From: Candidatus Contendobacter odensis Run_B_J11 | GTDB taxonomy: Bacteria > Pseudomonadota > Gammaproteobacteria > Competibacterales > Competibacteraceae | NCBI RefSeq assembly: GCF_000531125.1 | Contig: NZ_CBTK010000293.1 | Location: 1 to 38,237 of the forward strand | Length of the DNA stretch: 38,237 nt | Reading direction: 5' to 3' | Made by a program: the position numbers and the translations under genes | Shown: positions 13,401-31,921 of the stretch, in pieces | Position numbering within the stretch: position 1 is the stretch's first letter | How the letters are laid out: every line of letters begins with the position of its first letter | The notes under the pieces: model-generated | The model's input: only the letters and a program-made list of their open reading frames with translations | The model's database searches: none | Told to the model about the DNA's origin: nothing

Positions 13401-13531
13401 CTCTCGATCAGTTGCTTTGCGTAGGCCGGGAAATCGCTCCCGAAGCCATTGTTTAGGGAAGAGAAAGGTGTGTGGACTTGGAGGTCCCACTTTCTCCATT
13501 CGGAGCCACGAGGATAAATTGGAGTAGGCAT
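10442..13531 (-). CDS. PHP-domain/ABC (SMC-like) ATPase, TrlF-like
   Basis: 1029 residues with no export signal. Residues 1-320 form a PHP-type metal-dependent hydrolase domain: His20 in LQVHTPFS, Asp57 in GITDYF, His119 in NFHVLFS, and the HSSDSH motif at 277-282. An ABC/SMC-type ATPase follows, with Walker A GNKGSGKSA (371-379), a long coiled coil (about 500-800), signature LSPGERG (908-914), Walker B LVIDQPEEN (Asp934, Glu937) and the switch histidine in MVTH (His967). The layout matches what I know as TrlF-family AAA-like ATPases and recalls the ATPase half of RloC/PrrC anticodon nucleases. It is likely an ATP-controlled nuclease or phosphatase effector. Its DNA is A+T-richer than its neighbours (hand count 27/60 G+C at 11641-11700), suggesting separate acquisition. 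Confidence 0.85.
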   Translation of the reverse strand: MPTPIYPRGSEWRKWDLQVHTPFSSLNNGFGSDFPAYAKQLIERACKDDIAVVGITDYFTIQGYTELKKLLADESTLKALVGEYLAERAAGILFLPNIELRLSTIIRNPKGADSRVNFHVLFSDAVSPAHIEEHFLRELKFTADANTGSEDERWALNPQNLAELGKRLKTHHANFQGQTDLFVGMMNAIIDHSEVSKILENKTSFFKDRYLLCLPCDEDLSKCSWDGQGHWARKQLIQKSHVLISSNDGTRAFALGKRHASLEEFKTEFKTLKPCIHSSDSHTFNEMFCPDKGRHTWIKADPTFHGLRQILNEPEDRVFVGDIPPSLKRAARHATRIATTVGIKKTATATTTEKWFDSSIRLNSELVAVIGNKGSGKSALSDILGLLGNTPRYEAFSFLTPEKFRHPKNKISRQFEASLTWADGTTDAVPNLDVNPSADAVEKVKYIPQSYLESICNEIGAGKDGRFYNELQQVIFSHVPEVDRLGFGTLDELLTHRSEETNQAIAQFVANLQESNALIVAKEERSLPQHKKAIEAQLAEKNRELDAHTATRPADVPKPDADPTALQQSKVATEELEKKQAELKALELEIADLRASDLAAAKKHSTAEKLAGKLKNLERHVEAFLAEAKLEFDELGIAASDVVAFKVDLATIAALLKTLVADRAAIALKLLPDTNSGSEFKRKAVVTEIEDLQAKLSAPQRAYQAYLQVLKEWETGKAKIIGTDNSPGSIKYLQKQLSDLDGLPAYLKTLRKQRNRKLLEIFREKQKLRAYYETYYGAVQNFLKHHPLAASERFQLTFNVSMAESGFSEALLKRLNHRKVGPFMGDEDGAAEMKRLLDNTNFDSALGTLRFTKALFAKMAERDGKTLLVKDQLRQGVTVQEIYDFVFSLGFLSPIYNLQWDGKGLEQLSPGERGNLLLIFYLLVDQDDIPLVIDQPEENLDNQTVFKTLVPCIKDAKKRRQIVMVTHNPNLAVVCDAEQIICAEMQKDHENGVTYISGSIEDPIINGRIVDILEGTRPAFDKRDDKYLP

Positions 13532-13650
13532 GGTGGTATCACTTGAAGTTTAGTGGCGCTCAACACCCCGCTCAGCAATTTCGGCGGCAGCGTGTAACGC
13601 CGGGTGGTGCGGGCGCGGGATTCGGTGGAGTTGGCTTTGATCTTTGCCAT
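13453..13650 (-). CDS. Small ORF, possible remnant between YhcG-1 and the PHP-ATPase
   Basis: 65 codons beginning MAKIKANSTESRARTTRRYT and overlapping the PHP-ATPase start by 79 bases in another frame. Roughly the first 35 residues (to LPPKLLSGVLSA) come from DNA outside other genes and have coding-like composition; the rest is a shadow of the ATPase gene. It starts 11 bases after the YhcG-1 stop. I suspect a gene whose 3' part was lost when the ATPase gene was inserted, but I recognise no family and it may be non-coding. Confidence 0.3.
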   Translation of the reverse strand: MAKIKANSTESRARTTRRYTLPPKLLSGVLSATKLQVIPPCLLQFILVAPNGESGTSKSTHLSLP

Positions 13651-13661
13651 CAGCGGCGCGC

Positions 13662-14705
13662 TCAGTTCGGCAAAGTGGTCAGATCCCCGGCCAACTCGGC
13701 CTCGATTTCTTCGATGGTGGGCAGACGGGTATCCAGTGGCTCAGGCAGTGAGCGCACAAGTTGGTATTCGGCCACGCCGATCGGTTTGTTGATGCCGGAC
13801 AGGGCGTATTCGGCGACCAGGCGGTTTTGCTTTTTGCAGAGCAACAGGCCGATGGTGGGCTGATCGTCCGGGGCCTTGATTTGGGCATCCACGGCGGCAA
13901 GATAGAAATTGAGTTGGCCGGTATGCTCGGGTTTGAAATCCACGCCCCTGAGTTCCACCACCACGTAGCATTTGAGACGGGTGTGGTAGAAAAGCAGGTC
14001 GATAAAAAATTCGTCGCCACCGACCTCAAGCCGGAACTGGCGGCCAACAAAGGCGAAGCCCGCGCCCAGTTCCAGCAGAAATCGGGTGATGTGCCGGATG
14101 AGGGCGTTTTCAATATCGCGCTCGTGGGCTTCGTCGCCCAGACCCAAAAAATCAAAGAGGTAAGGGTCTTTCAGCGCCTCAACAGCAAGCTGCGCATGGG
14201 GCGCGGGCAGATGCTGCTCGAAATTGGTCACGGCAGCGGCTTGCCGCAAGTGGAGCCGGTTCTTGATGTGGATGTCGAGCGTGAGCCGCGACCAGCCTTG
14301 CGCTATCGCCTGTGCGGCGTACCACTCGCGCTCCGCTTCCGCAGAAACCTTGGTGAGGAGCGTGACGAGATGGAACCAGGGCAATTGGTCAGCAGGCTGC
14401 TGACCAATTAGACCGCTTGGGCACTGCTTGGCGAAAAACTTCATATATTTCAAGTTACTGGTTGAGAAGCCTTTCATCTCCGGGAAAGCTTCACGCAGGT
14501 CGCTGGCCAGACGGTCGATGACTTTCGCGCCCCAACCCTGACGGGTCTGCCGTTCCAGTATCTCGCTGCCGATATGGTGATAGAGCTGCACCAGTTCCTG
14601 ATTGACGGCAAGCGTGGCGCGCTGCTGCGCACCGGAGATGCGCGTCTTGAGACTGCTGAGCCAGTGTGCGTAGTCTGCCGGGATGATGAATTTGCTGGAG
14701 GTCAT
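13662..14705 (-). CDS. YhcG/DUF1016-family PDDEXK nuclease-like protein (YhcG-1)
   Basis: 347 residues. Residues about 10-150 form the helical DUF1016 N-terminal domain (AVNQELVQLYHHIGSEILER, GFSTSNLKYMKFF). Residues about 175-320 form the PDDEXK-like domain (DPYLFDFLGL, FAFVGRQFRLEVGGDEFFID, GQLNFYL). The presumed catalytic set is Asp236 in FFIDLLFY, then V-V-E-L-R, so Glu251 is present but the expected catalytic lysine is Arg253. Activity may therefore be altered or lost. ATG 14705 overlaps the stop of a 12-codon mini-ORF, giving translational coupling to the methyltransferase gene. It is a distant paralogue of YhcG-2 two genes upstream. YhcG-like proteins are common in defence islands. Confidence 0.88.
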   Translation of the reverse strand: MTSSKFIIPADYAHWLSSLKTRISGAQQRATLAVNQELVQLYHHIGSEILERQTRQGWGAKVIDRLASDLREAFPEMKGFSTSNLKYMKFFAKQCPSGLIGQQPADQLPWFHLVTLLTKVSAEAEREWYAAQAIAQGWSRLTLDIHIKNRLHLRQAAAVTNFEQHLPAPHAQLAVEALKDPYLFDFLGLGDEAHERDIENALIRHITRFLLELGAGFAFVGRQFRLEVGGDEFFIDLLFYHTRLKCYVVVELRGVDFKPEHTGQLNFYLAAVDAQIKAPDDQPTIGLLLCKKQNRLVAEYALSGINKPIGVAEYQLVRSLPEPLDTRLPTIEEIEAELAGDLTTLPN

Positions 14706-14740
14706 AGCCGTTTTTCCAAAGCGTTGAGCAAGGTTTTCAT
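14702..14740 (-). CDS. 12-codon mini-ORF linking methyltransferase and YhcG-1
   Basis: On the minus strand, ATG at 14740 overlaps the methyltransferase stop (ATGA), and the frame MKTLLNALEKRL ends in a TGA that overlaps the YhcG-1 ATG (again ATGA). Its first residues resemble those of the methyltransferase (MKTTLAHF). It could act as a translation relay holding the reinitiating ribosome between two genes, or be a leftover from gene fusion. The peptide itself may have no role. Confidence 0.4.
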   Translation of the reverse strand: MKTLLNALEKRL

Positions 14741-17700
14741 ACCCGGCCTTCCGCTTTGATGACGGCGAGGAGGTCGGGGCTGTCGGCGGTGAGGCGGAGG
14801 AGGCGATTGCGGATGGGGTGGCTGGGGGCGTTAAGGGTCGCGTGGAAGTGGGTGAGGAAGTCGCGCTGCTGGGACTCGCTGGCCGCTGGATCGTAGGCGA
14901 TGAGGTGCGGGGCTACGGTGTCGTGGAAGAGCAGATCGCGCTCCGCCATGTGCTCCCGGAAGTAGCACTCCATCACGCAGGCGTCGATGAGGTCCGAGAG
15001 GAACTGCTGTTGCACCTGAAGCTTCCCTCTTACTGCCGAAATCATCAGGTTGGTAAGGGGCAAGAAGAGGCCGCTTTGGCGAAGTAAGTCGGCACTTACC
15101 GGAATGCGATTGAGGTGGATGATTTTCGTTTCAATATAGGTGTCTCCTAGTCTTGGTGCTGCGAAAGTTCGGATGTAGTAGTTGGCAAGACTCGAAAGAA
15201 TCAGGGGTAGAATGGCTTTAAGATTCTCTTCGCTGTTCTTTGAGTAGTCACGAAGCTGCAAAGAAAAGAAATTGTTGGAGGCATAGGTATCCGAGTCATA
15301 AAATGCCATTATCGGATTCCCTGTTCTGGTAATGTAAATCTTTGGCAGCGTAAAAATCCGTTCATCTCGCAGGGATGCATAAAAACCTTGATCCTTGTCG
15401 ATAATTGACGCCCGGTAATCCACATACCAGTTACTGCGCTCTGAGTAGTAGTTTGAAATTTGATCGCCCGCTCGACCACCGTAAAATAGTGGCTTGCAGA
15501 ACTTGTTAATTGCTCGGTCGTGGAACAACAAATCCCGACTATTGCCAGTGTGGATTCCCTCGTGGCACTGCGTTATGCTTCCGAGGGAAACGTGACCTTC
15601 GAGTTTCTCAAGAATTGATCGCTCTTTCGCGCGAATCAGAAGGTTGAAACAAAAATCATGCTTTTTGAAGATGAAGTTCTTTTTCAGCTCTTCATAGGAT
15701 TCAGTTCGATTTTCTTTCTCAGCTGGGTCGTAAAACTGCTTCCGAATGCGGCAACTAACACTGCTTTTCGCCTGATTCAAAATTAGGACGCAAACATCAT
15801 GCTCTACATAAACAAACTGCCGGCACGACTCCGGAACACCGGTATTCAGATACCATGCAATATCAGTGATTTTCGGCGCTACCAATTCCCTTGTTCGGGC
15901 GTAATCTTTAATCAGAATGCTGTCGGGTAAGACAAAGGCAATGGAGAGATGCGATTGCCGTAGTGCCGCTCCAAGGAAGTATGCAAAAGAGTTAGGTGTT
16001 GATGAGTCGATTTCTGGATAATCAGTCTTCAGCCGTCCTTTCTGCGTCTTTGTAAGTGTTGCGCCCCACGGCGGATTGCCGATCACCACATCAAACCCGT
16101 TTACCAGCGACCGCCCGAACATCCAGTGCGGATCGAAGAAGTCAGCGGAGGATTGTGGATCAAAGGGGTCCCAGTCGGCGACGTGCTGGGCCTTCTTCGG
16201 TGCCATCAAGCTTTCAGCGAGTAGCTTCCCGAGTTCCTGGCGGAGGGTTTTGATTTTGCTCTGAAGGGCGAGCTTCCGGTCACGGCGCTGGATGGAAAAG
16301 TGGCTGTGGTAGAGGGCTTCGATCTCTTTTTCGATGAGGCCGACGCGGGGATCGACGAGCATCATTTGTCCCATCTCCGGTAAACCAATCAGCGTATTCG
16401 CCGCGACGAACTTGGTTTCCAGATTGGGCAGCGGGCGGATGCCGTGGTTGTCATCTTCATTCCGGTGGGTCTGCTGGTCGCAGACGAGTGAGATGAAGAA
16501 ACGGAGCTTGGTGATCTGGATGGCGATGGGCTGAATATCCACGCCGTAAAGGCAATTTTCGATCAGATAGAGCTTGCGGCCGTAGTCGTCGTTGTTATCG
16601 GCGAAAGCGCGTTCCAGTTCCTCGCGCATGGGGGCGGAGTCGAGCTTGGCGAGTTGGGTCTGCTTCCAGCGTTCGTTGTCGGGGTCGAGCTTGCCGAGGA
16701 TCGTGACGAGTTTGTGGAGGATGCCCATGGGGAAAGCGCCGGAACCGCAGGCGGGGTCGAGGATTTTCAGGGCGTCGATGGCGGCGATGAGGCCGGCGAC
16801 TTCGGACCCGGTGAAGGCGTGTTCTTTCTCGGTGTAGGCGAACAGGAGGTCCAGCCCGGCGCGGGCGTCGGCTTCCTTCATCCCGACCTTTTCCACCAGG
16901 GCGCGGGTGAAATGGGCCTTGAGCGACTCGTCCACCATGTAGTCCACGATGGGGCGCGGGGTGTAGAACGAGCCGGTCTGCTTGCGGGCGGTGGTCTTGG
17001 TTTCCTCATTGTAGGAAGCGAGGAGGTTCTCGAAAACCTTGCCGAGCAGTTCCGGGTCGAGCGCGATTTCCTGATCGATGGGGGTGTTCTCGACGATGGT
17101 GAACTTGTAGCGGTTCAGAATGGGGATCAGGCCGGAGACCTTTTCCTTCCTGCGCTTCTTATCGCCATACGCCCCAGACAGATCTTCCTCATGCTCGCCG
17201 CCGAAGAAGAGCCGGTTGGGGACGGCGGGGCGCTTTTTGGGATTGCGGGAGAAGCCGTCGAGGTAGCGCTTCTTGCCGGCGCCGTCCTCGCTGCGGTCGA
17301 GGCACTCGAACAGGCCGCCATTGAGGAACGGGATGTCGGCGAAGTGGGCGAGGGCAGCGTCCGGCGCTTCGCGGAAGAGGGCTTCGTAGCGGTAGAGGTT
17401 GTTGACATCGTAGGTGGCCTTGTTCTTGAGGAAGCCTTCGTCCTTCGCAAAGACGCGGTAGGGCTGGCCTTTGGCGTCCTGGCCCATGCGCTGATTCAGC
17501 GTGGCGAAGAAGAGGTTTTGCAGGATGGCCTGATAGTAGGTGGAGCGGTCGTCATCGAAATCGGTGAGGATTTTTTCCAGGGCGGTAGGGTGAAACAGTT
17601 TCTCGGGGATGAGGCCCTTTTCCTTGAGGAACCAGCAGAAGATCAGGCGGGTGAGCAGGCGAATGAGGCCGGTGGCGCGGCGCTTTTCGTCGTCGGGTTC

Positions 17701-18417
17701 GAGGTCGGCGGGAAATTCGACCTGCGGGAGCGCCCAGAAATACCAGTTGGCCAGTTCGCGGTAGAAGCGTTCGTTGAGCAGTTCGACGTTGAAAATCTGC
17801 TCCCACGCGGCGTGGAGCGTGTCGAAGTCGGTGATGGGCTTCTTTTGCGGGTGGACCAGCTTGGGCAGCCCCAGCGACTCAAGAATATCCAGGTGGCCGC
17901 GATGGGGCTGGGCAAGGTCGATTCCGCTGATCAGGGTGACTTTGCCGAGGACGTCCTTGCTCTCGTCAATTTTGTTCACCCGCCGGTTGATGACGGCGAT
18001 AGTGAGATGGCTCTGGTGCTTGAAGAACACCATGACGGGCATGGGGAAGAGGCGGTTGATCTGCCGGGCGATAGCGGAGAATCTGCCGCGGGCGTAATCA
18101 CGGCCTTTCAACTCGATAGCGATGAAAACGTAGGATTTCAGCAGCCCGGCTTCAACCGAGGTATTGGTGAAAAGGGCGGATTCGCGGCTGAGTTCCTGAT
18201 CAGTGAGCTGGAACAGGAGATCGGCGGTTTTCCACTCGGCGAAGAGAGCCTTGGCCGGTTCAAAAGCGTGGCCGGTGCCGAAGAGGTCAAGGAAGTCCTG
18301 CGGCATGGAACCGGCGCCGGCGATGAATTTGTCGCTCTGGTAGCCCAGCTTGGCGAGAAGCGGGCGAGCGGCGTCCTTGAGCGGGAGGGTCTGGAAATGG
18401 GCGAGGGTGGTTTTCAT
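14737..18417 (-). CDS. Eco57I/PglX-like N6-adenine methyltransferase, possible restriction-modification fusion
   Basis: 1226 residues. Methyltransferase landmarks are GSFYTPRPIVDYMVDESL (482-499), motif I ILDPACGSGAF (552-562) and motif IV NPPW (781-784), typical of gamma-class N6-adenine enzymes of the type IIG/BREX PglX kind. The N-terminal region has SYVFIAIELKG (95-105), an E-x-K core resembling a PDDEXK fold, followed by a conserved INRLFPMPVMVFF. The protein could therefore both methylate and cut, but that is inference. Residues about 790-1226 would be the target-recognition part. That DNA is strikingly A+T-richer (25/60 G+C at 15241-15300 against 41/60 at 17281-17340), as if a recognition module was exchanged. 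The start overlaps the YhcG-2 stop (ATGA, 18414-18417). Confidence 0.88.
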   Translation of the reverse strand: MKTTLAHFQTLPLKDAARPLLAKLGYQSDKFIAGAGSMPQDFLDLFGTGHAFEPAKALFAEWKTADLLFQLTDQELSRESALFTNTSVEAGLLKSYVFIAIELKGRDYARGRFSAIARQINRLFPMPVMVFFKHQSHLTIAVINRRVNKIDESKDVLGKVTLISGIDLAQPHRGHLDILESLGLPKLVHPQKKPITDFDTLHAAWEQIFNVELLNERFYRELANWYFWALPQVEFPADLEPDDEKRRATGLIRLLTRLIFCWFLKEKGLIPEKLFHPTALEKILTDFDDDRSTYYQAILQNLFFATLNQRMGQDAKGQPYRVFAKDEGFLKNKATYDVNNLYRYEALFREAPDAALAHFADIPFLNGGLFECLDRSEDGAGKKRYLDGFSRNPKKRPAVPNRLFFGGEHEEDLSGAYGDKKRRKEKVSGLIPILNRYKFTIVENTPIDQEIALDPELLGKVFENLLASYNEETKTTARKQTGSFYTPRPIVDYMVDESLKAHFTRALVEKVGMKEADARAGLDLLFAYTEKEHAFTGSEVAGLIAAIDALKILDPACGSGAFPMGILHKLVTILGKLDPDNERWKQTQLAKLDSAPMREELERAFADNNDDYGRKLYLIENCLYGVDIQPIAIQITKLRFFISLVCDQQTHRNEDDNHGIRPLPNLETKFVAANTLIGLPEMGQMMLVDPRVGLIEKEIEALYHSHFSIQRRDRKLALQSKIKTLRQELGKLLAESLMAPKKAQHVADWDPFDPQSSADFFDPHWMFGRSLVNGFDVVIGNPPWGATLTKTQKGRLKTDYPEIDSSTPNSFAYFLGAALRQSHLSIAFVLPDSILIKDYARTRELVAPKITDIAWYLNTGVPESCRQFVYVEHDVCVLILNQAKSSVSCRIRKQFYDPAEKENRTESYEELKKNFIFKKHDFCFNLLIRAKERSILEKLEGHVSLGSITQCHEGIHTGNSRDLLFHDRAINKFCKPLFYGGRAGDQISNYYSERSNWYVDYRASIIDKDQGFYASLRDERIFTLPKIYITRTGNPIMAFYDSDTYASNNFFSLQLRDYSKNSEENLKAILPLILSSLANYYIRTFAAPRLGDTYIETKIIHLNRIPVSADLLRQSGLFLPLTNLMISAVRGKLQVQQQFLSDLIDACVMECYFREHMAERDLLFHDTVAPHLIAYDPAASESQQRDFLTHFHATLNAPSHPIRNRLLRLTADSPDLLAVIKAEGRV

Positions 18418-19457
18418 GGGTTTTCGTCGCGGGCGCTGTCGTCGGCGAGTTGCAGGGTGAGTTCCAGTTCGCGGCGAAGCTCTTCGCGGTCGGGCAGGTA
18501 AAGCTGGTATTTCTGGACGAAAAGCGGGCTGTTCATCTGATAAGTGGCGTATTCGACGAGCAGTTCGTCCTTGTTTCGGGTGAGGATGATACCGATGGGC
18601 GGGTTGTCGCCCTCGGTGTTCTCCTCGGTGGCGAAGTAGCCGAGATACATGTTCATCTGGCCGATGTCGTGGTGCTTGAGGTCGTTGATCTTCAAATCGA
18701 TGAGGACAAAGCAGCGCAGGATGCGGTGGTAGAAAACCAGATCGACCCGGTAATGGGTGTTGTTGAGGGTGATGCGGTATTGCCGACCGACGAAGGTGAA
18801 ACCTTTGCCAAGTTCGAGGAGGAAGGGCTGGAGGTGATCGCAGAGGCGGGTTTCCAGATCCGTCTCCGAAACTTGGTGCGGCTCGGGGATTTTCAGGAAC
18901 TCGAAGACGTAGGGATCGCGGAGCAGGTCGGCGGGCTGGGCAATGATCTGGCCTTGGGCGGCAAGCTGAAGGATCGCGTCCTTGTCCTTTCCGGCGGCGA
19001 GACGGAGGAAGAGAGAGGTTTCTTTTTGACGTTTCAGCTCACGAACGGCCCATTTCTCCCGAATGGCCTGCTGCTCATAAAATCCGCGTTCGAGAGGGTT
19101 GTCGATCTTCAACAACTCGACAATGTGCGACCAACTCAAAAGGTGCGACAGCGTCGCACCTTTTGGGTAAGCGAGGTAGAACTGGCGAATGCGCACCACA
19201 TTGCTGCGGCTGAAACCTTTACCGTGGCGCAGAGTGAGATCGCGGCTGAGCTTGGTCAGCAAAGCCTTGCCGTAGTCCGCCCTGACGTTGCCGCCCTGTT
19301 CAAACTCGACGATGTCCCGACCAATCCGCCAGTAGGTCTCAGTGATGTGGACATTGACGGCCTGCGCCGCCCGGGCCTGACCGGTGGCGTAAACCTCGGA
19401 GATTTTCCCCAGCAGGCTCTGGTAGCCGGTGTCGGTAGTGAGTTCGCTGTTGCTCAT
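18414..19457 (-). CDS. YhcG/DUF1016-family PDDEXK nuclease (YhcG-2)
   Basis: 347 residues from ATG 19457, which has a near-perfect AAGGAGG site and overlaps the helicase stop (ATGA); the longer frame upstream is a shadow of the helicase gene. It has a DUF1016 N-terminal helical domain (NVHITETYWRIGRDIVEFEQ, GFSRSNVVRIRQFYL) and a C-terminal PDDEXK domain (DPYVFEFLKI, FTFVGRQYRITL). The catalytic pattern is intact: Asp239 in YRVDLVFYH, Asp254 and Lys256 in VLIDLKINDL. This contrasts with YhcG-1, whose lysine is replaced. The predicted role is DNA cleavage within the defence operon, probably with the helicase and methyltransferase whose genes it overlaps. Confidence 0.9.
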   Translation of the reverse strand: MSNSELTTDTGYQSLLGKISEVYATGQARAAQAVNVHITETYWRIGRDIVEFEQGGNVRADYGKALLTKLSRDLTLRHGKGFSRSNVVRIRQFYLAYPKGATLSHLLSWSHIVELLKIDNPLERGFYEQQAIREKWAVRELKRQKETSLFLRLAAGKDKDAILQLAAQGQIIAQPADLLRDPYVFEFLKIPEPHQVSETDLETRLCDHLQPFLLELGKGFTFVGRQYRITLNNTHYRVDLVFYHRILRCFVLIDLKINDLKHHDIGQMNMYLGYFATEENTEGDNPPIGIILTRNKDELLVEYATYQMNSPLFVQKYQLYLPDREELRRELELTLQLADDSARDENP

Positions 19458-22400
19458 GATTTGTCCTCCTTGATGACCAGCCAGGTCACGAGTTCGAGTT
19501 CGGTCTTTTCCTGAACCTGTTCCTGCACATTGGGCAGAACGAAGCTGCGCCCGGATTGGAGACTGGAGGCCGCGCGTTTGCGGAAGGTGGCAGCAAGCGA
19601 GTCCACGGCTTTTTGCAAGAGCGTGTCGTAAACCTGCATGTCGCTGCCGTGATGGGTTTGCTGGTCGAACAGATTGCAAAGCGGTGCGTGGACTTCCGCT
19701 TTACCCGAACAAAGGATTCGGTAAATGTCGAGAATCTGCTTCGGGTGGGCGAAACCGAAGCGGACATTGCCGTCGTCCAGGACGTAAACAAGGAAATAGG
19801 GATGGAGCGGGTTGATAGACTCGCTCGGCGCGGGCTTCGCATCGGTAGCGCCGCCGCGCTGACCCTCCAGCCGTAAGCAGAAGATGACGCCGGGGCCGAT
19901 AGCTTTGTAGTCGGGGTGCGGCGGAACGCAGGTGTAGAGGCCGAAAGGGGCGGCTTCGAGGGCGGCGCGGTTGGCCTCAAGGTATTTCAGCAGCTCAAGG
20001 CGGAAGTCGTCGAGGGTGAATTCGGTGAGGGAGACGCTGTCGCCGAGGTCTTCGAGGTCGAGGACTTCATCTTTGAGCCGAAGCAGTTGCTTGTCGCGGT
20101 AGCGGAGGTCATCAGCGATGAGGTCTTCGATCTCCTCGTTCTTGAGTACGTTGTCCTCGAAGGTAGCAGAGAGGTCCACCAGGGCCATCCGGGCTTCAAC
20201 GCGGTTCTTGAGGTTGATGTATTTGTTCAGATCCTCGGTGGGCCAGAAATTGATGAGTTGCACGGTGTGGCTCGCGCTGCCGATCCGGTCGATACGCCCA
20301 AAACGCTGGATGATGCGGACGGGATTCCAGTGAATGTCGTAGTTGATCAGGGTGTCGCAGTCCTGAAGGTTCTGGCCTTCGCTAATGCAATCGGTGGCGA
20401 TCAGGAGGTCGATTTCACCCTGCTGCGGCAGAGTGGGAATCTTGGCGCGGTGTTTAGCTCGCGGGGAAAAATTAGTGAGAATCTGGTCGTAAGCGCTCGC
20501 GCCGAAGGTGGTGCGGGTGGCGCCGCCGCCGCAGACCAGGGCCAGGTGGATGCCGAGTTCCTGGCGCGCCCAGTCGAGCAGCGATTCATAGAGATAGGCG
20601 GCAGTGTCTGCAAACGCGGTAAAGACCAGGATTTTCCGGTTCGGCTCGCCCTGTTTGTTGGTCGTGGGTTTGGCGACCTTGGCGGCAATGAGCTTCTTGA
20701 GTTCAGCCAGCTTGGCGTCGGTTTCAGGCGTGACATCCCGTGCGGCGTTGTAGAGGATGCGAAGCTGGTCTTTGTCGCGCTTGAGCGCTTTGATCCAGCC
20801 GTCGTCGCCGTCGAGCCGGAGGTGGTTCAAGCGAAACTTCAGTTTGCCGCCCACCTGCAGTGCGTCCTCCAGCTCTTCGTCGTGGCCGGGGTCGTCGAAT
20901 TCGAGTTCCAGCTCTGCGACTTCGGGGTTCTGCCTGGGCAACGCCTGGAAGTTTTTGATCTTCTGTTCCAACCCCTCGATCTTGGCGATGGTGCGCTCCA
21001 TGGTGATCTCGAACGATTTGACCGAGCTTTCCAGGCGCTTGAGGAAGTTCACCTTCATCATGCCGATGAGGAAAGTTTCGCGCTGGCCCTGGGTGAACGG
21101 GAAGGCGCCCTTCTTCTCATACTCGGCCTTGTACGGCTCCAGGACGTAGCGGGACGGATTGAACAGCGACAATTTGTAAGCAGCGATTTCGTCGTTGAGC
21201 TTGTCGTAGGAGAGGAAGCGCCCGCGCAGGTCGATTTCGGGATAAATCGAGAGGGGCTTTTCGCGCTTCGGAAAGCCGCCGAGTTGGGCGATGGTGGCCG
21301 GGTAGTATTTCTGAATGTGCTTGCGCGAGCGGGCGATGGTCAGTTCATCGAGGAGTTTGAAAAAGGCGGCGTTGAGTTTTTCCAGCAGTTCGCTGGTCTT
21401 GCGCTCGTGGGTCTGCTTCTTCGCCCAGAGGGAGAAGACCTTTTGCGCGGTGGCGAGGGTTTCCCTGAGGCTGCCGACGCCGATGGAGGCCGCGAAGGCG
21501 TCATCGCGATTTTCGGTGAGGCAGTAGAGTTGATTACGGAGGTCTTTGAGGTCGTTGTTGACCGGGGTGGCGGAAAGCAGCAGAACCTTGGTGCGAACGC
21601 CGGATTTGATGATGTCGTCCATGAGCCGCTGGTAGCGGCTTTTGCGGATGAGGCTCCCTTCCCCGTCGCGCTTGCCGGGGGTGTTGTTGCGGAAGTTGTG
21701 CGACTCGTCGATGACGATGAGATCGTAGTTGCCCCAGTTCAGGGCCGCGAGATTGAGATCGCCAGAAGTGCCGGTCTCGCGGCTGAGGTCAGTGTGCGAG
21801 AGAACGTCGTAGCGGAAACGGTCATCGACGAACGGATTGAGGAGGCTGTTGTAGCGATAGACGGTCCAGTTGTCGCGCAGCTTCTTCGGGCAGAGCACGA
21901 GGACGCGCTCGTTTTTCAGCTCGAAGTATTTCATGACCGCGAGCGCCTCGTAGGTTTTCCCCAGGCCGACGCTGTCCGCGATGATGCAGCCGTTGTGACG
22001 GAGAATTTTGTTGATGGCGCCTTTGGCTCCGTCCTTCTGGAACTCGAACAGCGCTTGCCAGATCCCGGTCTCGAACAGGCGGGTTTTGCCCAGATCCGCG
22101 TCGGTCTGGCCGGCGTCGCCGAGGAACTTCTCGAAGAGGTGAAAGAGCGTCTTGTAGTAGATGAACTCCGGGGTATGGTTCTCATAGAGCTGCTTGAGGT
22201 CGTTGAGAACATCCGGCTTGACGTCCTTTACCAGAGTCTCGTTGCCCCACAGCTCATCGAACCATTGCTTGAGTTCCTGACGGTCGCGGTTGCCGTCCAC
22301 GATGAGGTTCAGTTCGATGTTGTTGCCAGTCTTACCGAGGCCGAGACCGCGCACCGTGAAGTTGGAGCTGCCGAGAATGGCGTCCGCCACGCCAGCGGTG

Positions 22401-22789
22401 GCGATGTGATACATCTTGCCGTGCAGGAGGTTGGATTGCTTGATGGTTCTGATCGCCACCTTGCGCTCGATCCAGTCGGCGCACTCCCGGGCGATGCGTT
22501 TCTGTTGGAGCCGGTTGGCGAGTTCCAAACCGTCAGCGTCAATGATGAACGCCTTTTTCTCGGTCTTGCTGGGGTCGAGGTGGTTAACGAAGGACGGCTC
22601 GCCGAAGAGAAAATCGAGATGTCCGATGCGTTCGAGAGCTTCCTTGAGCGCGTCGTAGGCGTAGATGGTGAAATAGGCCGAGACGATGGAGAGCTGGGAG
22701 CCGCTCTGGATTTTCGCCCGCAGGAAATCGGCGACCGTTCCCCTGGCGTGGTTGTCGCGCAGGCCGGAGTGGTTATTTGACGTGGGCAT
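19454..22789 (-). CDS. PLD-family nuclease fused to SNF2-type helicase
   Basis: 1111 residues. Residues 1-190 form a phospholipase D-like nuclease domain with the HKD elements LLHGKMYHI (His123, Lys125) and G-S-S-N-F-T (140-145). The SNF2/superfamily 2 helicase follows: Walker A IADSVGLGKT (270-279), DESH (361-364), LLLSATPVNN (403-412), the second RecA lobe KILVFTAFADTAAYL (719-733), ATDCISEGQNLQ (798-809) and motif VI QRFGRIDRIG (828-837). A 270-residue C-terminal region is unassigned. I chose ATG 22789 (GGAAAACGCC upstream) over the in-frame ATG 22831 because the extra 14 codons lie in a sulfatase fossil read in another frame. It is the first gene of the island operon and the likely motor and sensor. 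Confidence 0.9.
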   Translation of the reverse strand: MPTSNNHSGLRDNHARGTVADFLRAKIQSGSQLSIVSAYFTIYAYDALKEALERIGHLDFLFGEPSFVNHLDPSKTEKKAFIIDADGLELANRLQQKRIARECADWIERKVAIRTIKQSNLLHGKMYHIATAGVADAILGSSNFTVRGLGLGKTGNNIELNLIVDGNRDRQELKQWFDELWGNETLVKDVKPDVLNDLKQLYENHTPEFIYYKTLFHLFEKFLGDAGQTDADLGKTRLFETGIWQALFEFQKDGAKGAINKILRHNGCIIADSVGLGKTYEALAVMKYFELKNERVLVLCPKKLRDNWTVYRYNSLLNPFVDDRFRYDVLSHTDLSRETGTSGDLNLAALNWGNYDLIVIDESHNFRNNTPGKRDGEGSLIRKSRYQRLMDDIIKSGVRTKVLLLSATPVNNDLKDLRNQLYCLTENRDDAFAASIGVGSLRETLATAQKVFSLWAKKQTHERKTSELLEKLNAAFFKLLDELTIARSRKHIQKYYPATIAQLGGFPKREKPLSIYPEIDLRGRFLSYDKLNDEIAAYKLSLFNPSRYVLEPYKAEYEKKGAFPFTQGQRETFLIGMMKVNFLKRLESSVKSFEITMERTIAKIEGLEQKIKNFQALPRQNPEVAELELEFDDPGHDEELEDALQVGGKLKFRLNHLRLDGDDGWIKALKRDKDQLRILYNAARDVTPETDAKLAELKKLIAAKVAKPTTNKQGEPNRKILVFTAFADTAAYLYESLLDWARQELGIHLALVCGGGATRTTFGASAYDQILTNFSPRAKHRAKIPTLPQQGEIDLLIATDCISEGQNLQDCDTLINYDIHWNPVRIIQRFGRIDRIGSASHTVQLINFWPTEDLNKYINLKNRVEARMALVDLSATFEDNVLKNEEIEDLIADDLRYRDKQLLRLKDEVLDLEDLGDSVSLTEFTLDDFRLELLKYLEANRAALEAAPFGLYTCVPPHPDYKAIGPGVIFCLRLEGQRGGATDAKPAPSESINPLHPYFLVYVLDDGNVRFGFAHPKQILDIYRILCSGKAEVHAPLCNLFDQQTHHGSDMQVYDTLLQKAVDSLAATFRKRAASSLQSGRSFVLPNVQEQVQEKTELELVTWLVIKEDKS

Positions 22790-22817
22790 GGCGTTTTCCA
22801 GAAAGGGCTTGGCTACG

Positions 22818-22859
22818 GTAGCCGAGGTCATCGGCGAGGATGGCGACGATGTTGGGCTG
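22818..22859 (-). pseudogene. Arylsulfatase N-terminal fossil at island edge
   Basis: The minus strand encodes Q-P-N-I-V-A-I-L-A-D-D-L-G-Y, the canonical metal-binding N-terminal signature of sulfatases, with a stop directly upstream (22860-22862) and another about 15 codons later. Nothing else of the gene remains. The wording differs from the N-V-L-L-I-M-T-D-D-S-G-F-G version in the sulfatases at 25724 and 29111, so it came from another subfamily member. Confidence 0.6.
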
Positions 22860-25537: not shown

Positions 25538-25561
25538 AAACCCGCCGCATGGCGGGTTTTT
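25538..25561 (+). terminator. Rho-independent terminator
   Basis: AAACCCGCC, a GCAT loop, then GGCGGGTTTTT: a perfect 9-base stem ending in a T-run, 43 bases after the cytochrome stop. Confidence 0.92.
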
Positions 25562-25598: not shown

Positions 25599-25649
25599 TT
25601 CGCAGCCGCAACTGTGGTGAAACAACAAGAAAAACCGACTACCCTTATC
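25599..25649 (+). promoter_or_regulatory. Conserved 51-nt sulfatase leader element, copy 1
   Basis: Aligns without gaps to 29016-29066, upstream of the second sulfatase: 40 of 51 positions are identical by hand count, including a 16-base identical core CAAGAAAAACCGACTA and shared TTCGCAG and TTATC ends. It lies 75 bases before the sulfatase ATG. It could be a promoter/operator or a 5' UTR element. As the flanking DNA differs, selection on this block is plausible. Confidence 0.65.
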
Positions 25650-25723
25650 GGATTCCCCTGCTGGGAAAGACAGTTCGGCTTCCGGTTCCACCGGGAAAAA
25701 GCACACTTCAAGAGGAGCTGCAC

Positions 25724-28480
25724 ATGCAAATACGTTCATCCAACGCGCCTCGCTGGGAATTTCATCCCAGGATAGGGCGGGGAATTTGCTCGGCCATGGT
25801 GATCGTGGCTTGTCTCGCCGCCGCCGGCGTTCAGGCCGCCGACCAGGGACCACGCCACCACGCCAAGGGCCAGTACGAGACCGTCACCGCCACCTACACG
25901 GCGGTCGAGGGTGACGAGTTGATCGCCATCGGCGAGCGCTTCGAGGTTCCGCTGGAGTCGCTGAAAGCGCAGAACAAGCTGACATCGGACGAGGTCACGG
26001 TGGGCCAAAAGCTGGTCGTGGCCACCGGCGCAGCCGAGACAGGACTAGCCAGCGCCCCGCAAATCACCGGCGTGCCGGGTTCGCCCAGCGCCACTACCAC
26101 CATCAGCGGGAACCAACTCCCGCCGCCCGACCCGAAATTCGGCGGGGTGATCAAGGAAAAGGCCACGGAGTCGAAAGCCTGGTGGCCGCCGCGTATCGTG
26201 CCGCCCAAAAGCGCACCCAATGTCCTGCTCATCATGACCGACGATAGCGGCTTCGGCGCGCCGAGTACCTTCGGCGGCGTCGTCCCGACCCCGGCCCTGG
26301 ATCGCATCGCGAACAATGGGCTGCGCTACACCCAGTTTCACTCCACCTCACTGTGCTCACCGACGCGGGCCGCGCTGATCACCGGTCGCAACCATCACGT
26401 GGCGGGCTTCGGAGTCGTGGGCGAAGCGGCGACGGGGTTCCCCGGCTACGATTCGATCATCAAGAAGGACGCCGGCACCATCGGCACCATCCTCAAGGAA
26501 AACGGCTATGCGACCTCGTGGTTCGGCAAGGACCACAACACGCCCTTTTACCAGGCGAGCCAGGCCGGCCCCTTCGGCCAATGGCCGACCGGGATGGGCT
26601 TCGATTATTTCTACGGCTTCATCGGCGGCGATACCAGCCAGTGGCAACCGAACCTGTTCCGCAACACGACCGCCATCTATCCCTTCCAGGGCAATCCCGG
26701 CTGGAATCTGACCACGGCGATGGCCGATGACGCGATCCAGTACATGAAGCAACTCAAGGAGATCGCGCCCGACAAACCGTTCTTCGTCTATTACGTACCG
26801 GGCGGCACCCACGCCCCGCATCACCCGACGCCGGAATGGATCAAGAAGATCAGCGACCTGCGCCTGTTCGATGGCGGCTGGAACAAGATTCGCGAGACCA
26901 TCTTCGCCAACCAGAAACGGCTGGGCATCATGCCCACCGATGCCAAGCTGACGCCGTGGCCGAAGGAACTGCCGGAGTGGGATTCGCTGAGCTTCGAGGA
27001 GAAGAAGCTCTTCATCAAGCAGGCCGACGTCTTCGGGGCCTACCTCGCCTACACCGATCACGAGATTGGCCGGGTCATCCAGGCGGTCGAAGATCTCGGC
27101 GAACTCAACAACACCCTGATCATTTACATTGCCGGCGACAACGGCGCGAGCGCCGAGGGCATGCTCAACGGCACGCCGAACGAGTTCACCACCTTCAACG
27201 GCATTGCCGTGCCGGTCAAGGATCAGTTCCTCTGGTACGAGTTCTGGGGATCGGATCGGACCTTCCCGCACTTCGCGGCGCCTTGGGCGTGGGCGATGGA
27301 CACACCGTTCAAGTGGACCAAGCAGGTAGCGTCGCACTTCGGCGGGACATCCCAGGGCCTCGCCATGTCCTGGCCCGGCCACATCACGGACATGGGCGGC
27401 ATCCGCCGCCAGTTCCACCACGTCATCGACATCGTGCCGACCCTCCTGGAAGCCACCGGCATCGAAGCGCCCGAGACGATCAATGGCATCCAGCAACGCC
27501 CCATCGAAGGCGTGAGCATGACGTACACCTGGGACAAGGCCAACGCCGACGCGCCGACTAAGCATAAGACGCAATACTTCGAGATGCTCGGTAATCGCGC
27601 CATCTATCACGACGGTTGGGTAGCGGCCACGACTCCGGTGACGCTCCCCTGGGAGCTGAGCCACGCCACGCCGCCGGACGTAATCACCGGCTACAAGTGG
27701 GAGCTCTACGACATCAACAAGGACCCCACCGAGTTCGACGATCTGGCTGGGAAGATGCCGGACAAGCTCAAGGAAATGCAGGAAATTTTCTACGCCCAGG
27801 CGAGGAAGTACGACGTGCTGCCGCTCGACAACTCGACGCTGGCGCGCTTCCTCACGCCGCGTCCGAGCGCGACGGCGGGACGCACGAAGTTCACCTACTC
27901 CGGCACGCTAACCGGCGTACCCGCCAGCGCCGCGCCGAACATCCTCGAAAAGGACTATACGATCACCGCCGAGATCACCGTCCCCGAAGGGGGCGGCGAA
28001 GGCATGATCGTCACCCAGGGCGGGCGCTTCGGCGGCTATGCCCTCATGCTCTCGAAGGGCCTGATGGGCCTCCGCCACGGCAAGCCGGTGTTCATCTACA
28101 ACCTTCTTGACCTCAAGCGCACCCTCTGGGAAGGACCCGAACTCCCGCCCGGCAAGCACACCCTCGTCTTCGACTTCAAGATCGAGGGCGTCGGCTTCGG
28201 CAAAGGCGGCACCGGCCGGCTCATCGTGGACGGGCAGGAGGTGGACAAGAAAGCGATGGAGCACACCACGCCCATTCTATTCCCCGAGAACGAGGACTTT
28301 GATGTCGGAATGGACACCCGCACCGGGGTAGCGCTGGTTGAGTATCGCTACGATGTCCCCTTCGCATTCACTGGCGTGATCGACAAGCTCACCTTCGATC
28401 TGGGTCCCGAGCAATACACCGAGGCGGAGAAAAAGCTTCTTCCAGCCATTCGCGACCAGGTCGCGCGGGCGAAGGACTAG
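25724..28480 (+). CDS. Exported LysM-arylsulfatase (formylglycine type), copy 1
   Basis: 918 residues from ATG 25724 (AGAGGAGCTGCAC upstream); the longer frame from 25283 is a shadow of the cytochrome gene. Residues 1-38 form a signal peptide and residues 58-100 a LysM domain (EGDELIAIGERF, SLKAQNKL, GQKLVV). The sulfatase domain then starts at APNVLLIMTDDSGFG with Asp173-Asp174 as metal ligands. Cys211 in S-L-C-S-P-T-R is the residue converted to formylglycine by FGE. GKDHN, GTHAPHHP and IAGDNGAS supply further active-site residues. The 270-residue C-terminal extension is beta-rich. It cleaves sulfate esters; the substrate is unknown. FGE is not encoded in this window. Confidence 0.93.
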   Translation: MQIRSSNAPRWEFHPRIGRGICSAMVIVACLAAAGVQAADQGPRHHAKGQYETVTATYTAVEGDELIAIGERFEVPLESLKAQNKLTSDEVTVGQKLVVATGAAETGLASAPQITGVPGSPSATTTISGNQLPPPDPKFGGVIKEKATESKAWWPPRIVPPKSAPNVLLIMTDDSGFGAPSTFGGVVPTPALDRIANNGLRYTQFHSTSLCSPTRAALITGRNHHVAGFGVVGEAATGFPGYDSIIKKDAGTIGTILKENGYATSWFGKDHNTPFYQASQAGPFGQWPTGMGFDYFYGFIGGDTSQWQPNLFRNTTAIYPFQGNPGWNLTTAMADDAIQYMKQLKEIAPDKPFFVYYVPGGTHAPHHPTPEWIKKISDLRLFDGGWNKIRETIFANQKRLGIMPTDAKLTPWPKELPEWDSLSFEEKKLFIKQADVFGAYLAYTDHEIGRVIQAVEDLGELNNTLIIYIAGDNGASAEGMLNGTPNEFTTFNGIAVPVKDQFLWYEFWGSDRTFPHFAAPWAWAMDTPFKWTKQVASHFGGTSQGLAMSWPGHITDMGGIRRQFHHVIDIVPTLLEATGIEAPETINGIQQRPIEGVSMTYTWDKANADAPTKHKTQYFEMLGNRAIYHDGWVAATTPVTLPWELSHATPPDVITGYKWELYDINKDPTEFDDLAGKMPDKLKEMQEIFYAQARKYDVLPLDNSTLARFLTPRPSATAGRTKFTYSGTLTGVPASAAPNILEKDYTITAEITVPEGGGEGMIVTQGGRFGGYALMLSKGLMGLRHGKPVFIYNLLDLKRTLWEGPELPPGKHTLVFDFKIEGVGFGKGGTGRLIVDGQEVDKKAMEHTTPILFPENEDFDVGMDTRTGVALVEYRYDVPFAFTGVIDKLTFDLGPEQYTEAEKKLLPAIRDQVARAKD

Positions 28481-28496
28481 CGGCGTGACGGGGGCG

Positions 28497-28862
28497 ATGA
28501 AAAAAGCGCTGATGCTCGCCGCGCTCGGCGAGGTTGCCACCGGCGTGGCGTTACTAATGGTTCCGTCGCTGGTCGGGCGGCTGTTGCTCGGCGCGGAACT
28601 GATCGGCATCGCCCTGCCGGTGGCGCGCGTGGCTGGCATGGCCCTGATCGGGCTGGGGGTCGCCTGCTGGCCGGGCTTGGCGCTGGCCGGCATGTTGACC
28701 TACAGCGCGGGCGTCGCGTTGTACCTCGCTTACCTCGGTATCGGCGGCGAATGGGTCGGGCCTCTGTTGTGGCCGGGCGTAGCGCTGCACGCCGTCATGG
28801 CGCTGTTGCTGGTCTGGACCTGGCGCGACGAGCGACGGACCCAGGCGACCCATAAAGGGTAG
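28497..28862 (+). CDS. Small four-helix membrane protein
   Basis: About 121 residues from ATG 28497 (GTG 28485 is an alternative), starting 16 bases after the sulfatase stop and so probably in its operon. Four hydrophobic segments (ALMLAALGEVATGVALLMVP, a second around VARVAGMALIGLGVACW, a third around LAGMLTYSAGVALYLAYLG, and LHAVMALLLVWTW) predict an inner-membrane protein with a basic C-terminal tail. I recognise no specific family. Confidence 0.75.
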   Translation: MKKALMLAALGEVATGVALLMVPSLVGRLLLGAELIGIALPVARVAGMALIGLGVACWPGLALAGMLTYSAGVALYLAYLGIGGEWVGPLLWPGVALHAVMALLLVWTWRDERRTQATHKG

Positions 28863-29015
28863 CCCGACCCGTAATTTCGCGACCTTGACGGTTGATCGGC
28901 TCGCTACCAGACTTCTTAATTGGTAGCATTTTTACCGACTAAGGTAGTCCTGTAAAAAGTAGTGCCCTGATTGCACTGCATAAGCTGTCAATCTGTTCGA
29001 GCAAATATGCGCTGG

Positions 29016-29066
29016 TTCGCAGGTACGATTGTCGTGAAATAGCAAGAAAAACCGACTATTTTTATC
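29016..29066 (+). promoter_or_regulatory. Conserved 51-nt sulfatase leader element, copy 2
   Basis: Partner of 25599-25649. Here the 3' end can also pair with downstream DNA: CGACTAT at 29053-29059 and ATAGTCG at 29071-29077 form a 7-base stem. It lies 44 bases before the sulfatase ATG. The rest of 28863-29110 is an intergenic leader without a gene. Confidence 0.65.
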
Positions 29067-29110
29067 AACGATAGTCGCCGAAACCAATACCCTCATTTGG
29101 AGGATTACCT

Positions 29111-31921
29111 ATGCAGAACATGTTATCCCACGGGTTTCACTGGAAACCTTTCAGGGGAGCGAGGCTTGGCATCTGCTCAGCTTTGGCTTTAATCGCCGGT
29201 CTCGCCTTCGGCAGCGTCCAAGCGGCCGACCGAGGATCGCTCAAATACGCGGAGGGCCGCTTCGACGCTGCCACCGCTACCTATGAGGTGGTCGCGGGCG
29301 ACGATCTGGCTGCGATCAGCGAGCGCTTCAGCGTCACGGTGCCGGAGCTGAGGGCGCAAAACAAGCTAACCACAGATAAGATCGAGGTTGGTCAGAAGTT
29401 GGTAGTGGCTGCCAGCGGAAACGGGATCACCGGTGTTCTTGGCTCACCCAGCGCTACCACCACGATCAGCGGCACCCAACTCCCAGCGCCACAGCCGAAA
29501 TTCGGCGGCGTGATCAAGGACGACGCACTTCAATCCAAGCCGTGGTGGGCACCACGCATCGTGCCGCCCAAGGGCGCGCCCAATATCCTGCTGATCCTGA
29601 CCGACGACGCCGGCTTTGCCGTTCCGAGTACCTTCGGCGGCGTGATCCCGACGCCAACTATGGACAGCATCGCGGCGAATGGTCTGCGCTACAACCGCAT
29701 CTTCTCCACCTCGCTGTGCTCGCCGACCCGCGCCGCGCTGATCACCGGGCGCAACCACCACTCGGTGGGTTTCGGGGTGATCGCCGAGCAGGCCACCGGG
29801 TTCCCCGGCTACAACAGCGTCATCGGCGCGGACAATGCGACCATCGGCCGCATCCTGCGCGACAACGGCTATGCAACGTCGTGGTTCGGCAAGGACCACA
29901 ACACGCCGACTTACGAAGCCAGCCAGGCCGGGCCATTCACCCAGTGGCCGACCGGCATGGGCTTCGACTACTTCTACGGTTTTGTCGGCGGCGATGCCAA
30001 TCAGTGGGGGCCGAACCTGTTCCGCAACACCACGCAAATCTATCCGTGGATTGGTCACGAGGGCACCCTGAAGATGGATCGATCCGATCCGAAGGCAGCG
30101 ATCTGGCCCGTCACCGGCAAAGAGAGTTCCTGGAACCTGGTCACCGCAATGGCTGACGACGCTATCGCCTGGATGGACCGGATTCACCAGATCGATCCTG
30201 ACCAGCCGATCTTCCTCCACTACGTACCCGGTGCCTCGCACGCGCCGCACCACCCGACCAGGGAATGGGTGGACAAGATCCACGCCATGCACCTGTTCGA
30301 CGATGGCTACGAGAAGCTGCGCGAGCGGATCTTCGCGAACCAGCAGCGGCTGGGCGTGATTCCCAAAGGGCTGAAGCTCACGCCTTGGCCCAATGAAATG
30401 CTGACGCCGTGGGACAAGCTGAGCGCGGACGCTAAGAAGCTCTACATCCGCCAGGTGGAGGTCTTCGCCGCCTATGTCGCTTACAGCGACTACGAGATCG
30501 GCCGTGTGATCCAGCACTTCAAGGATCTCGGCAGGCTCGAGAACACGCTGATCATCTACCAGAACGGCGACAACGGCACCAGCGCCGAAGGCGGGCCGGA
30601 AGGCACCTTCAGCGAGGTGGCGTTCTTCAACGGGGTGAAGCCGCCGGTGGATGTGCAGATGAAGTTCTACGAAGCCTGGGGCACCGAACTGGCCTACAAC
30701 CACATGTCGGCCGGCTGGTCCTGGGCCTTCGACACGCCGTTCGACTGGTTCAAGCAGAACGCCTCCCGGCTCGGCGGCACCAACCAGAACATGGTGATCC
30801 AGTGGCCGGCTCGCATCAAGGACCAAGGCGGCCTGCGCGAGCAGTTTATGCATGTCATCGACCACGTGCCCACGATCCTGGAAGTCACCGGCATCAAGGC
30901 GCCCGAAGTCGTGGACGGCATCAAGCAGAAGCCGATCGAAGGCACCAGCTACGCCTACACCTTCGACGCGGCTAACGCCAAGGCGCCTTCCCGGCATACG
31001 ACCCAGTATTTCGAGATGATGGGCCAGTGGGCCATGTATCACGATGGCTGGCTGATGAGTACCAAGGTGGACCGCGCGCCGTGGGATGCCTTCTCCTCGG
31101 CCAACCCGGATCCGCTGAATAACCAGGTGTTCCAACTCTACGACCTGAGCAAGAGCTGGAACCAATCCGAAGACATCGCCGCGCAGCACCCGGACAAGGT
31201 GAAGGAAATGCGGGCCATGTTCCTGGAGGAAGCGAGGAAGTATCAGGTCCTGCCGCTGGATGCCTCGGTCGGTGCCCGCGTCGCGGCGCAGCGTCCGAGC
31301 CTCACCGCCGGCCGCAATGAGTATGTTTACACGGCGCCCATGATCGGTTTGCCGCAGGGCGATGCGCCCTATCTGCTCAACACCTCCTACACGATCACCG
31401 CAGACATCACCATTCCTGAAGGCGGTGCCGAGGGTATGATCGTGACTTCCGGCGGGCGCTTTGCCGGCTTCGGCATGTACCTGCTCAAGGGCAAGCCGGT
31501 GTTCCTGTGGAACCTGCTCGATCTGGAGCGCATCAAGTGGGAGGGTCCGGACACGCTCACGCCCGGCCAGCACACCATCGAGTTCGACTCCAAGTATGAG
31601 GGCCTCGGCGCGGCCACGATGGCGTTCAACAATTTCTCGGGCATCGGCAAGGGGGCCGACACCACCTTCAAGGTCGATGGCAAGGTGGTCGCGACCAAGA
31701 AGATGGAGAGGACGATTCCCATCATCCTGCAATGGGACGAGAGCTTCGACATCGGCTCCGACACGATCACCGGCGTGAACGACGCGGACTACAAGCCGCC
31801 CTTCCCGTTGACCGCCAAGCTCAACAAGCTGACCATCAAGGTGGACCGGCCGAAGTTATCTCCTGAGGACATCAAGAAACTTGAGGAAGCCCTGAAGAAG
31901 GTCGAATCCGCCCGCGAGTAA
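29111..31921 (+). CDS. Exported LysM-arylsulfatase (formylglycine type), copy 2
   Basis: 936 residues; GGAGG lies 8 bases before the ATG. It has the same layout as the copy at 25724: signal peptide, LysM (about 58-100, VAGDDLAAISERF, ELRAQNKL, VGQKLVV), the linker motif GSPSATTTIS, and the sulfatase domain with LTDDAGF (Asp165-Asp166), Cys203 in S-L-C-S-P-T-R, GKDHN, GASHAPHHP and NGDNG. The N-terminal metal motif reads DDAGFAVPS where copy 1 has DDSGFGAPS. An insert around residue 315 (LKMDRSDPKAAIWPVTGKES) is absent from copy 1, so the substrates may differ. A perfect 12-base-stem terminator follows. Confidence 0.93.
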   Translation: MQNMLSHGFHWKPFRGARLGICSALALIAGLAFGSVQAADRGSLKYAEGRFDAATATYEVVAGDDLAAISERFSVTVPELRAQNKLTTDKIEVGQKLVVAASGNGITGVLGSPSATTTISGTQLPAPQPKFGGVIKDDALQSKPWWAPRIVPPKGAPNILLILTDDAGFAVPSTFGGVIPTPTMDSIAANGLRYNRIFSTSLCSPTRAALITGRNHHSVGFGVIAEQATGFPGYNSVIGADNATIGRILRDNGYATSWFGKDHNTPTYEASQAGPFTQWPTGMGFDYFYGFVGGDANQWGPNLFRNTTQIYPWIGHEGTLKMDRSDPKAAIWPVTGKESSWNLVTAMADDAIAWMDRIHQIDPDQPIFLHYVPGASHAPHHPTREWVDKIHAMHLFDDGYEKLRERIFANQQRLGVIPKGLKLTPWPNEMLTPWDKLSADAKKLYIRQVEVFAAYVAYSDYEIGRVIQHFKDLGRLENTLIIYQNGDNGTSAEGGPEGTFSEVAFFNGVKPPVDVQMKFYEAWGTELAYNHMSAGWSWAFDTPFDWFKQNASRLGGTNQNMVIQWPARIKDQGGLREQFMHVIDHVPTILEVTGIKAPEVVDGIKQKPIEGTSYAYTFDAANAKAPSRHTTQYFEMMGQWAMYHDGWLMSTKVDRAPWDAFSSANPDPLNNQVFQLYDLSKSWNQSEDIAAQHPDKVKEMRAMFLEEARKYQVLPLDASVGARVAAQRPSLTAGRNEYVYTAPMIGLPQGDAPYLLNTSYTITADITIPEGGAEGMIVTSGGRFAGFGMYLLKGKPVFLWNLLDLERIKWEGPDTLTPGQHTIEFDSKYEGLGAATMAFNNFSGIGKGADTTFKVDGKVVATKKMERTIPIILQWDESFDIGSDTITGVNDADYKPPFPLTAKLNKLTIKVDRPKLSPEDIKKLEEALKKVESARE

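Follow-up and report, generated by a model that had tools for sequence, protein, structure and literature searches.

Sulfate-starvation promoters of sulfatases are controlled by CysB and Cbl, and sulfatases of the kind considered here are activated by members of the FGE family. At the level of the core promoter, the sigma-70 type offers the obvious comparison; to our knowledge, the spacer between the two hexamers is not conserved in ordinary promoters of this type. Candidatus Contendobacter odensis Run_B_J11 is a wastewater-type bacterium of the family Competibacteraceae, and the DNA analysed here, termed the window, comprises 38,237 nucleotides of its contig NZ_CBTK010000293.1. It carries two genes for LysM-sulfatases, sulfatases 1 and 2, each preceded by one copy (A and B, respectively) of a 51-nt block (Table 1). 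The locus resembles the CysB/Cbl-dependent systems in the kind of target gene; two proteins of the host genome score above the cut-off of NF009327, which we take to be a CysB-like family, and five matches exceed that of the FGE family. No link of these proteins to the block was found, and a sulfate-responsive control of the sulfatases through the block is a guess. The comparisons described below indicate that the block is probably a DNA-level transcription control element, namely, a core promoter and/or operator, of the Competibacteraceae LysM-sulfatase unit. The element is of an ordinary kind and patchy in its occurrence.

The two copies align without gaps and with 40 identities over 51 positions, and their mismatches are scattered over the block, whereas a core of 16 consecutive bases, CAAGAAAAACCGACTA, is identical. 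The original prediction had described this similarity and the differing surroundings correctly, since the 50-nt blocks on either side of the copies match at 11 to 17 positions only. A repeat search stretched the similarity to 56 nt at 77% identity, and BLASTN of one sulfatase gene region against the other returned the block with E=1.24e-6. In 2,000 dinucleotide shuffles of both intergenic regions, the best 51-nt match had a mean of 25.1 and a maximum of 31 identities, and none of the shuffles reached the real value of 40. The 16-mer occurs, with at most three mismatches, three times in the window against 0.27 expected occurrences, the third one being at position 15526 with three mismatches. 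The distance from the end of the block to the ATG is 74 nt for copy A and 44 nt for copy B. A whole-genome search with the block, which had been proposed as a check, was conducted by BLASTN against the 4.6 Mb in 319 contigs; it returned copies A and B, the next matches having E=0.28 or worse, so that no third copy was found in these contigs. Searches of plasmids with the copy A region and of phages with the copy B region gave no match. A coding relic was also considered and rejected: the sulfatase frame is open through copy A, yet there is a stop just after copy B, and the mismatches between both copies have no third-position bias in a manual count.

Table 1. Positions of the sulfatase genes and of the elements preceding them, numbered from the first nucleotide of the window
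Feature	Position	Strand	Remarks
Terminator-like hairpin	25538..25561	+	After upstream cytochrome/TPR gene; inverted repeat, named by eye
Element copy A	25599..25649	+	5' of sulfatase 1; 40/51 with copy B; model match 25613-25651
Candidate -35/-10 pair GTGAAA-17-TACCCT	25617..25645	+	Weak, putative; below promoter-scan threshold
16-nt identical core, copy A	25626..25641	+	CAAGAAAAACCGACTA; its CCGA at 25635-25638
Sulfatase 1	25724..28480	+	LysM + Sulfatase (PF00884); CSPTR motif at residue 211; ATG 25724
Small hydrophobic ORF	28485..28862	+	Between both sulfatases
Extra ACCGACTA	28934..28941	+	117 nt upstream of ACCGACTA in copy B; may be chance
Element copy B	29016..29066	+	5' of sulfatase 2; 40/51 with copy A; model match 29030-29067
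Candidate -35/-10 pair GTGAAA-17-TATTTT	29034..29062	+	Weak, putative; no plus-strand site in scan
16-nt identical core, copy B	29043..29058	+	CAAGAAAAACCGACTA; its CCGA at 29052-29055
Sulfatase 2	29111..31921	+	LysM + Sulfatase (PF00884); CSPTR motif at residue 203; ATG 29111

The age of the two genes bears on how this similarity is to be read. Of 900 aligned residues, sulfatases 1 and 2 share 526 (58%), and 149 of their 285 four-fold sites match (52%), compared to 40% expected from composition alone; over the first 100 codons, which adjoin the block, 43% of the four-fold sites match. Both genes are thus old paralogues with four-fold sites near saturation, and the block is therefore not what remains of an upstream region that was duplicated recently. 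Such a duplication had been named as the finding that would speak against the original prediction; the divergent flanks and the 43% match at the adjoining four-fold sites are the opposite of what it would leave behind. Given that four-fold sites match at only 52%, with 40% expected, the 78% identity of this non-coding DNA does not reflect passive inheritance. To account for its retention while both sides of the block have become unrecognisable, either the block must have been under selection or a conversion must have occurred very locally. The latter would be a small recombination event, by gene conversion or promoter capture, through which one gene acquired the block of the other, the block having no role beyond that of the existing promoter. 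The presence of just two copies in the genome would agree with this explanation, as would two features of the family detailed below, namely, a patchy occurrence in two separate clades of the gene tree and leader types that differ much. We consider it unlikely, since the mismatches are spread over the block and spare the 16-nt core, the adjoining coding DNA has diverged nearly to saturation, and diverged versions exist in other genera.

These diverged versions were identified by scoring the upstream regions of 20 sulfatase loci from relatives (the fragment L025 was left out) with a matrix derived from copies A and B alone. The upstream site was the top match of its locus in three of the 20 cases (L011 of genome G011, L013 of G025, and L027 of G028), compared to about 0.4 expected by chance (p ~0.02 each), and it ranked second in two others (L010 of G026 and L020 of G004), of which L020 was left out of the carrier count. 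In 3,000 shuffles of the upstream regions, P was 0.0000 for L011, 0.0000 for L027, 0.0007 for L013, and 0.023 for L010, these four loci having been selected for the test post hoc. An alignment of the six sequences has C...A....CCGA........A.C in common, in which the CCGA of the 16-nt core is invariant in all six; L010 contributes the weakest sequence to the model built from them. Among 39 genomes of the family, with up to 150 candidates scored per genome, this six-sequence model returned only its own six sites at E<0.01, these being the same sites on which it was trained, and in four regions of 16 to 20 kb around the carriers, matches with E<0.1 were confined to the training sites. In L011, the insertion of a REP-like repeat of about 80 nt (about 1340-1416), which begins some 10 nt behind the element, separates the latter from the sulfatase start, and the last bases of the L011 core may consequently not be homologous. 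REP-like repeats of Competibacteraceae thus share the intergenic region of the element in G011, but they differ from it in having a separate sequence and many copies (in G011, G021, and G028), whereas the element is not repeated.

When only copies A and B were used to build the model, genome-wide searches missed the sites of the relatives, and the support for these sites is therefore local. This failure would be expected if the sites in relatives were chance matches and the block a local peculiarity such as the relic of a mobile or repeated sequence, and the absence of the block from the near orthologues in G029, G018, and G019 points in the same direction. Three relatives are significant against shuffles, though, the host genome holds no further copy, and neither plasmids (copy A region) nor phages (copy B region) match, so that we regard this explanation as very unlikely.

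The distribution of the element was followed on a tree of 20 sulfatase bodies, composed of 18 from relatives and the two of the window, with L024, L025, and L031 left out. Six of the 20 are carriers, as judged from the matrix scores and the shuffles: sulfatase 1 groups with the G028 relative in one clade and sulfatase 2 with those of G011, G025, and G026 in another. The original prediction depended on the block being present in related genomes with the same sulfatase genes, which holds for four of the 18 relatives' rows and fails for the other 14. Near orthologues that have no element are those of G029, G018, and G019 and copy 1 of G011, although the body of the latter is 94% identical to sulfatase 1. 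When 80 named loci were searched with the six-sequence model, only L040 and L044 matched, which correspond to the L013 site (G025) and the L010 site (G026), respectively. Upstream DNA was read for 25 of the 80, picked mainly for matches that reach the N-terminus and consisting of seven Competibacteraceae and 18 other loci, with uncertain start codons for several. Of the 18 loci that do not belong to the family (purple sulfur bacteria, Accumulibacter, and others), none has the element at the expected place as judged by a pattern that would miss versions like those of L010 or L027.

In G011, G025, G026, and G028, the element lies behind a common upstream gene whose product ends in KVGNE, and a hairpin identified by eye precedes the element behind this gene. 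In the window, copy A is located behind a cytochrome/TPR gene and that gene's own hairpin, which has perfect 9-nt arms, 4 nt between them, and a run of T at its end, and which is absent from the list of the terminator scan. Because the upstream gene differs between the window and the relatives, the element seems to go with the sulfatase and not with the neighbour; in G018, the KVGNE-ending gene is present and the element is absent. The order sulfatase 1, small ORF (a putative membrane gene), and sulfatase 2 is common to the window and G028, where a similar-looking small ORF was seen by eye at the same place; the one of the window has no Pfam family over the cut-off. A single element, the only model match of the locus with E<0.1, heads the whole set in G028, as compared to one per sulfatase in the window. 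Four loci devoid of the element (L012, L017, L018, and L019) share by eye another type of leader, consisting of CAAGC, a less conserved stretch, and TTA, followed by a GGAG-rich stretch, and leader types therefore seem to turn over within the family.

The original prediction had left open whether the block is a shared promoter/operator or an untranslated RNA element. The first of these is best supported, by the likeness of the block in unrelated flanks and by its diverged versions 5' of the relatives' sulfatases, whereas the RNA half is unsupported. According to the latter, the block would act in an untranslated leader with which both mRNAs begin, such as a riboswitch, a thermometer, or a protein-binding RNA. 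Some folding signal was obtained for copy B, where the segment 29016-29085 had z=-2.44, with three of 200 shuffles folding as well, and the segment 29034-29110 had z=-1.69, but copy A and three relatives folded like shuffles (z from -1.28 to 1.20). An Rfam scan produced no match in either copy, its two matches, far below the curated thresholds, lying outside both. No consensus structure and no pairs were predicted from the six sequences, and a possible CCGA/TCGG stem shows no compensatory change and has one pair broken in four of the six. The covariation analysis that had been suggested for homologous loci turned out negative in this sample of six sequences, with none of the four stem pairs changed on both sides. 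An RNA leader is thus highly improbable.

A stem followed by TTTTTCTTG could also be read as an intrinsic terminator on the opposite strand. In copy A, the terminator scan places a terminator-like site on the minus strand, at 25651-25635, and copy B can form a stem of eight pairs at the same place on the plus strand. The scan lists no such site in copy B, though, the minus-strand fold of which does not choose the stem; the T-run is broken by eye in L010 and L027, and the stem is not kept among the six sequences. There is also no apparent minus-strand gene that ends there, mechanical minus-strand ORFs notwithstanding. A terminator function is accordingly extremely improbable.

A promoter/operator with a start near the 3' end of the block fits its position, the loss of similarity after it, and the lack of support for an RNA structure. 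RNA polymerase would start near this end, which would leave the downstream 5' leaders to diverge, and a sigma factor or regulator may read the conserved CAAGAAAAACCGACTA segment, through which both sulfatases would be switched together. In resemblance to a sigma-70 core promoter, the block has a plausible place and distance to the genes, and GTGAAA-17-TAnnnT is readable in both copies. It differs in falling below the consensus threshold, as no site with at least nine of 12 matches and a spacer of 16 to 18 nt was detected on the plus strand around copy A or B, and in that its conservation is highest in the would-be spacer. L010, L013, and L027 do not retain the weak -10 reading. The position of the best-conserved part in the would-be spacer suggests recognition by a regulator or by an alternative sigma factor. 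Promoters of the ECF or FliA type, as judged by eye against their consensus sequences, offer a likeness in that a CCGAC-type core is situated about 17 nt after an upstream motif. Judged in the same way, copy B reads TGTCGT-17-CGAC like an ECF42-type motif, but copy A has TGTGGT, and the relatives do not keep the motif. No sigma or anti-sigma domain was detected among the window proteins scanned. We tentatively consider it possible that CAAGAAAAACCGACTA is an asymmetric site of a family-specific regulator or alternative sigma factor that serves only LysM-anchored sulfatases, that a single copy drives the genes in some genomes, and that the duplication of the promoter in the window keeps both enzymes in step. 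If the promoter/operator reading is correct, the element provides a handle on the control of envelope or extracellular sulfatases in uncultured Competibacteraceae, as well as a site that is easy to test when looking for the regulator.

Searches for an operator dyad and for further regulon members yielded candidates that were mostly rejected. The dyad CCGAnTAnnnTnATCGG was found in 18 rows (17 places) in the 39 family genomes, compared to 12 for the reversed control, and 13 of 16 checked sites are wholly inside a mechanical ORF of at least 120 aa; the 16 include window copy A, counted as inside because the frame of sulfatase 1 is open upstream. The right half of the dyad in L011 may come from the repeat inserted there. 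A 24-nt pattern with at most three mismatches gave two matches beyond copies A and B in 59 genomes, compared to six control matches, and these two are inside ORFs of 334 and 104 aa. The next family match of the six-sequence model, in G032 (E=0.039), lies inside an ORF of 335 aa; a further weak match was obtained in G037 (E=0.043), and 22 of 24 other weak matches are inside ORFs of at least 120 aa. The ORF overlap is a weak test, since three of the six element sites are also inside such mechanical ORFs.

The surroundings of the element provide several further observations. A LysM module is present at 1701-1929, 25808-26036, and 29195-29423 of the window, the second and third being 81% and 73% identical in DNA to the first, and it is joined in these places to a DUF1254/DUF1214 protein, sulfatase 1, and sulfatase 2, respectively. 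Further LysM-DUF1254/1214 proteins are encoded in the relatives' islands, and the module looks like a shuffled one. In the literature listings searched, nothing was found that joins Contendobacter with sulfatase or that pairs any two among sulfatase, DUF1254, and DUF1214. Copy 1 of G011 (L175 13372-15900) begins without a LysM domain. A LysM-like sequence is encoded by an ORF about 1 kb upstream (L175 12079-12366), which gives the impression of a module that has become detached. Elsewhere in the window, a 91-nt repeat (26-116 and 1082-1172, 93% identical) spans the leader and the start of a weakly EipA-like ORF, below the Pfam cut-off, and its first copy is followed by a different sequence, located upstream of a PIN-domain gene. 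The minus strand carries a defence-like island at 10442-22831, which contains an AAA/SMC-type ATPase, two DUF1016/YhcG nucleases (PADLOC candidate PDC-S02), a type IIG-like restriction-methylase, and a PLD-SNF2 helicase.
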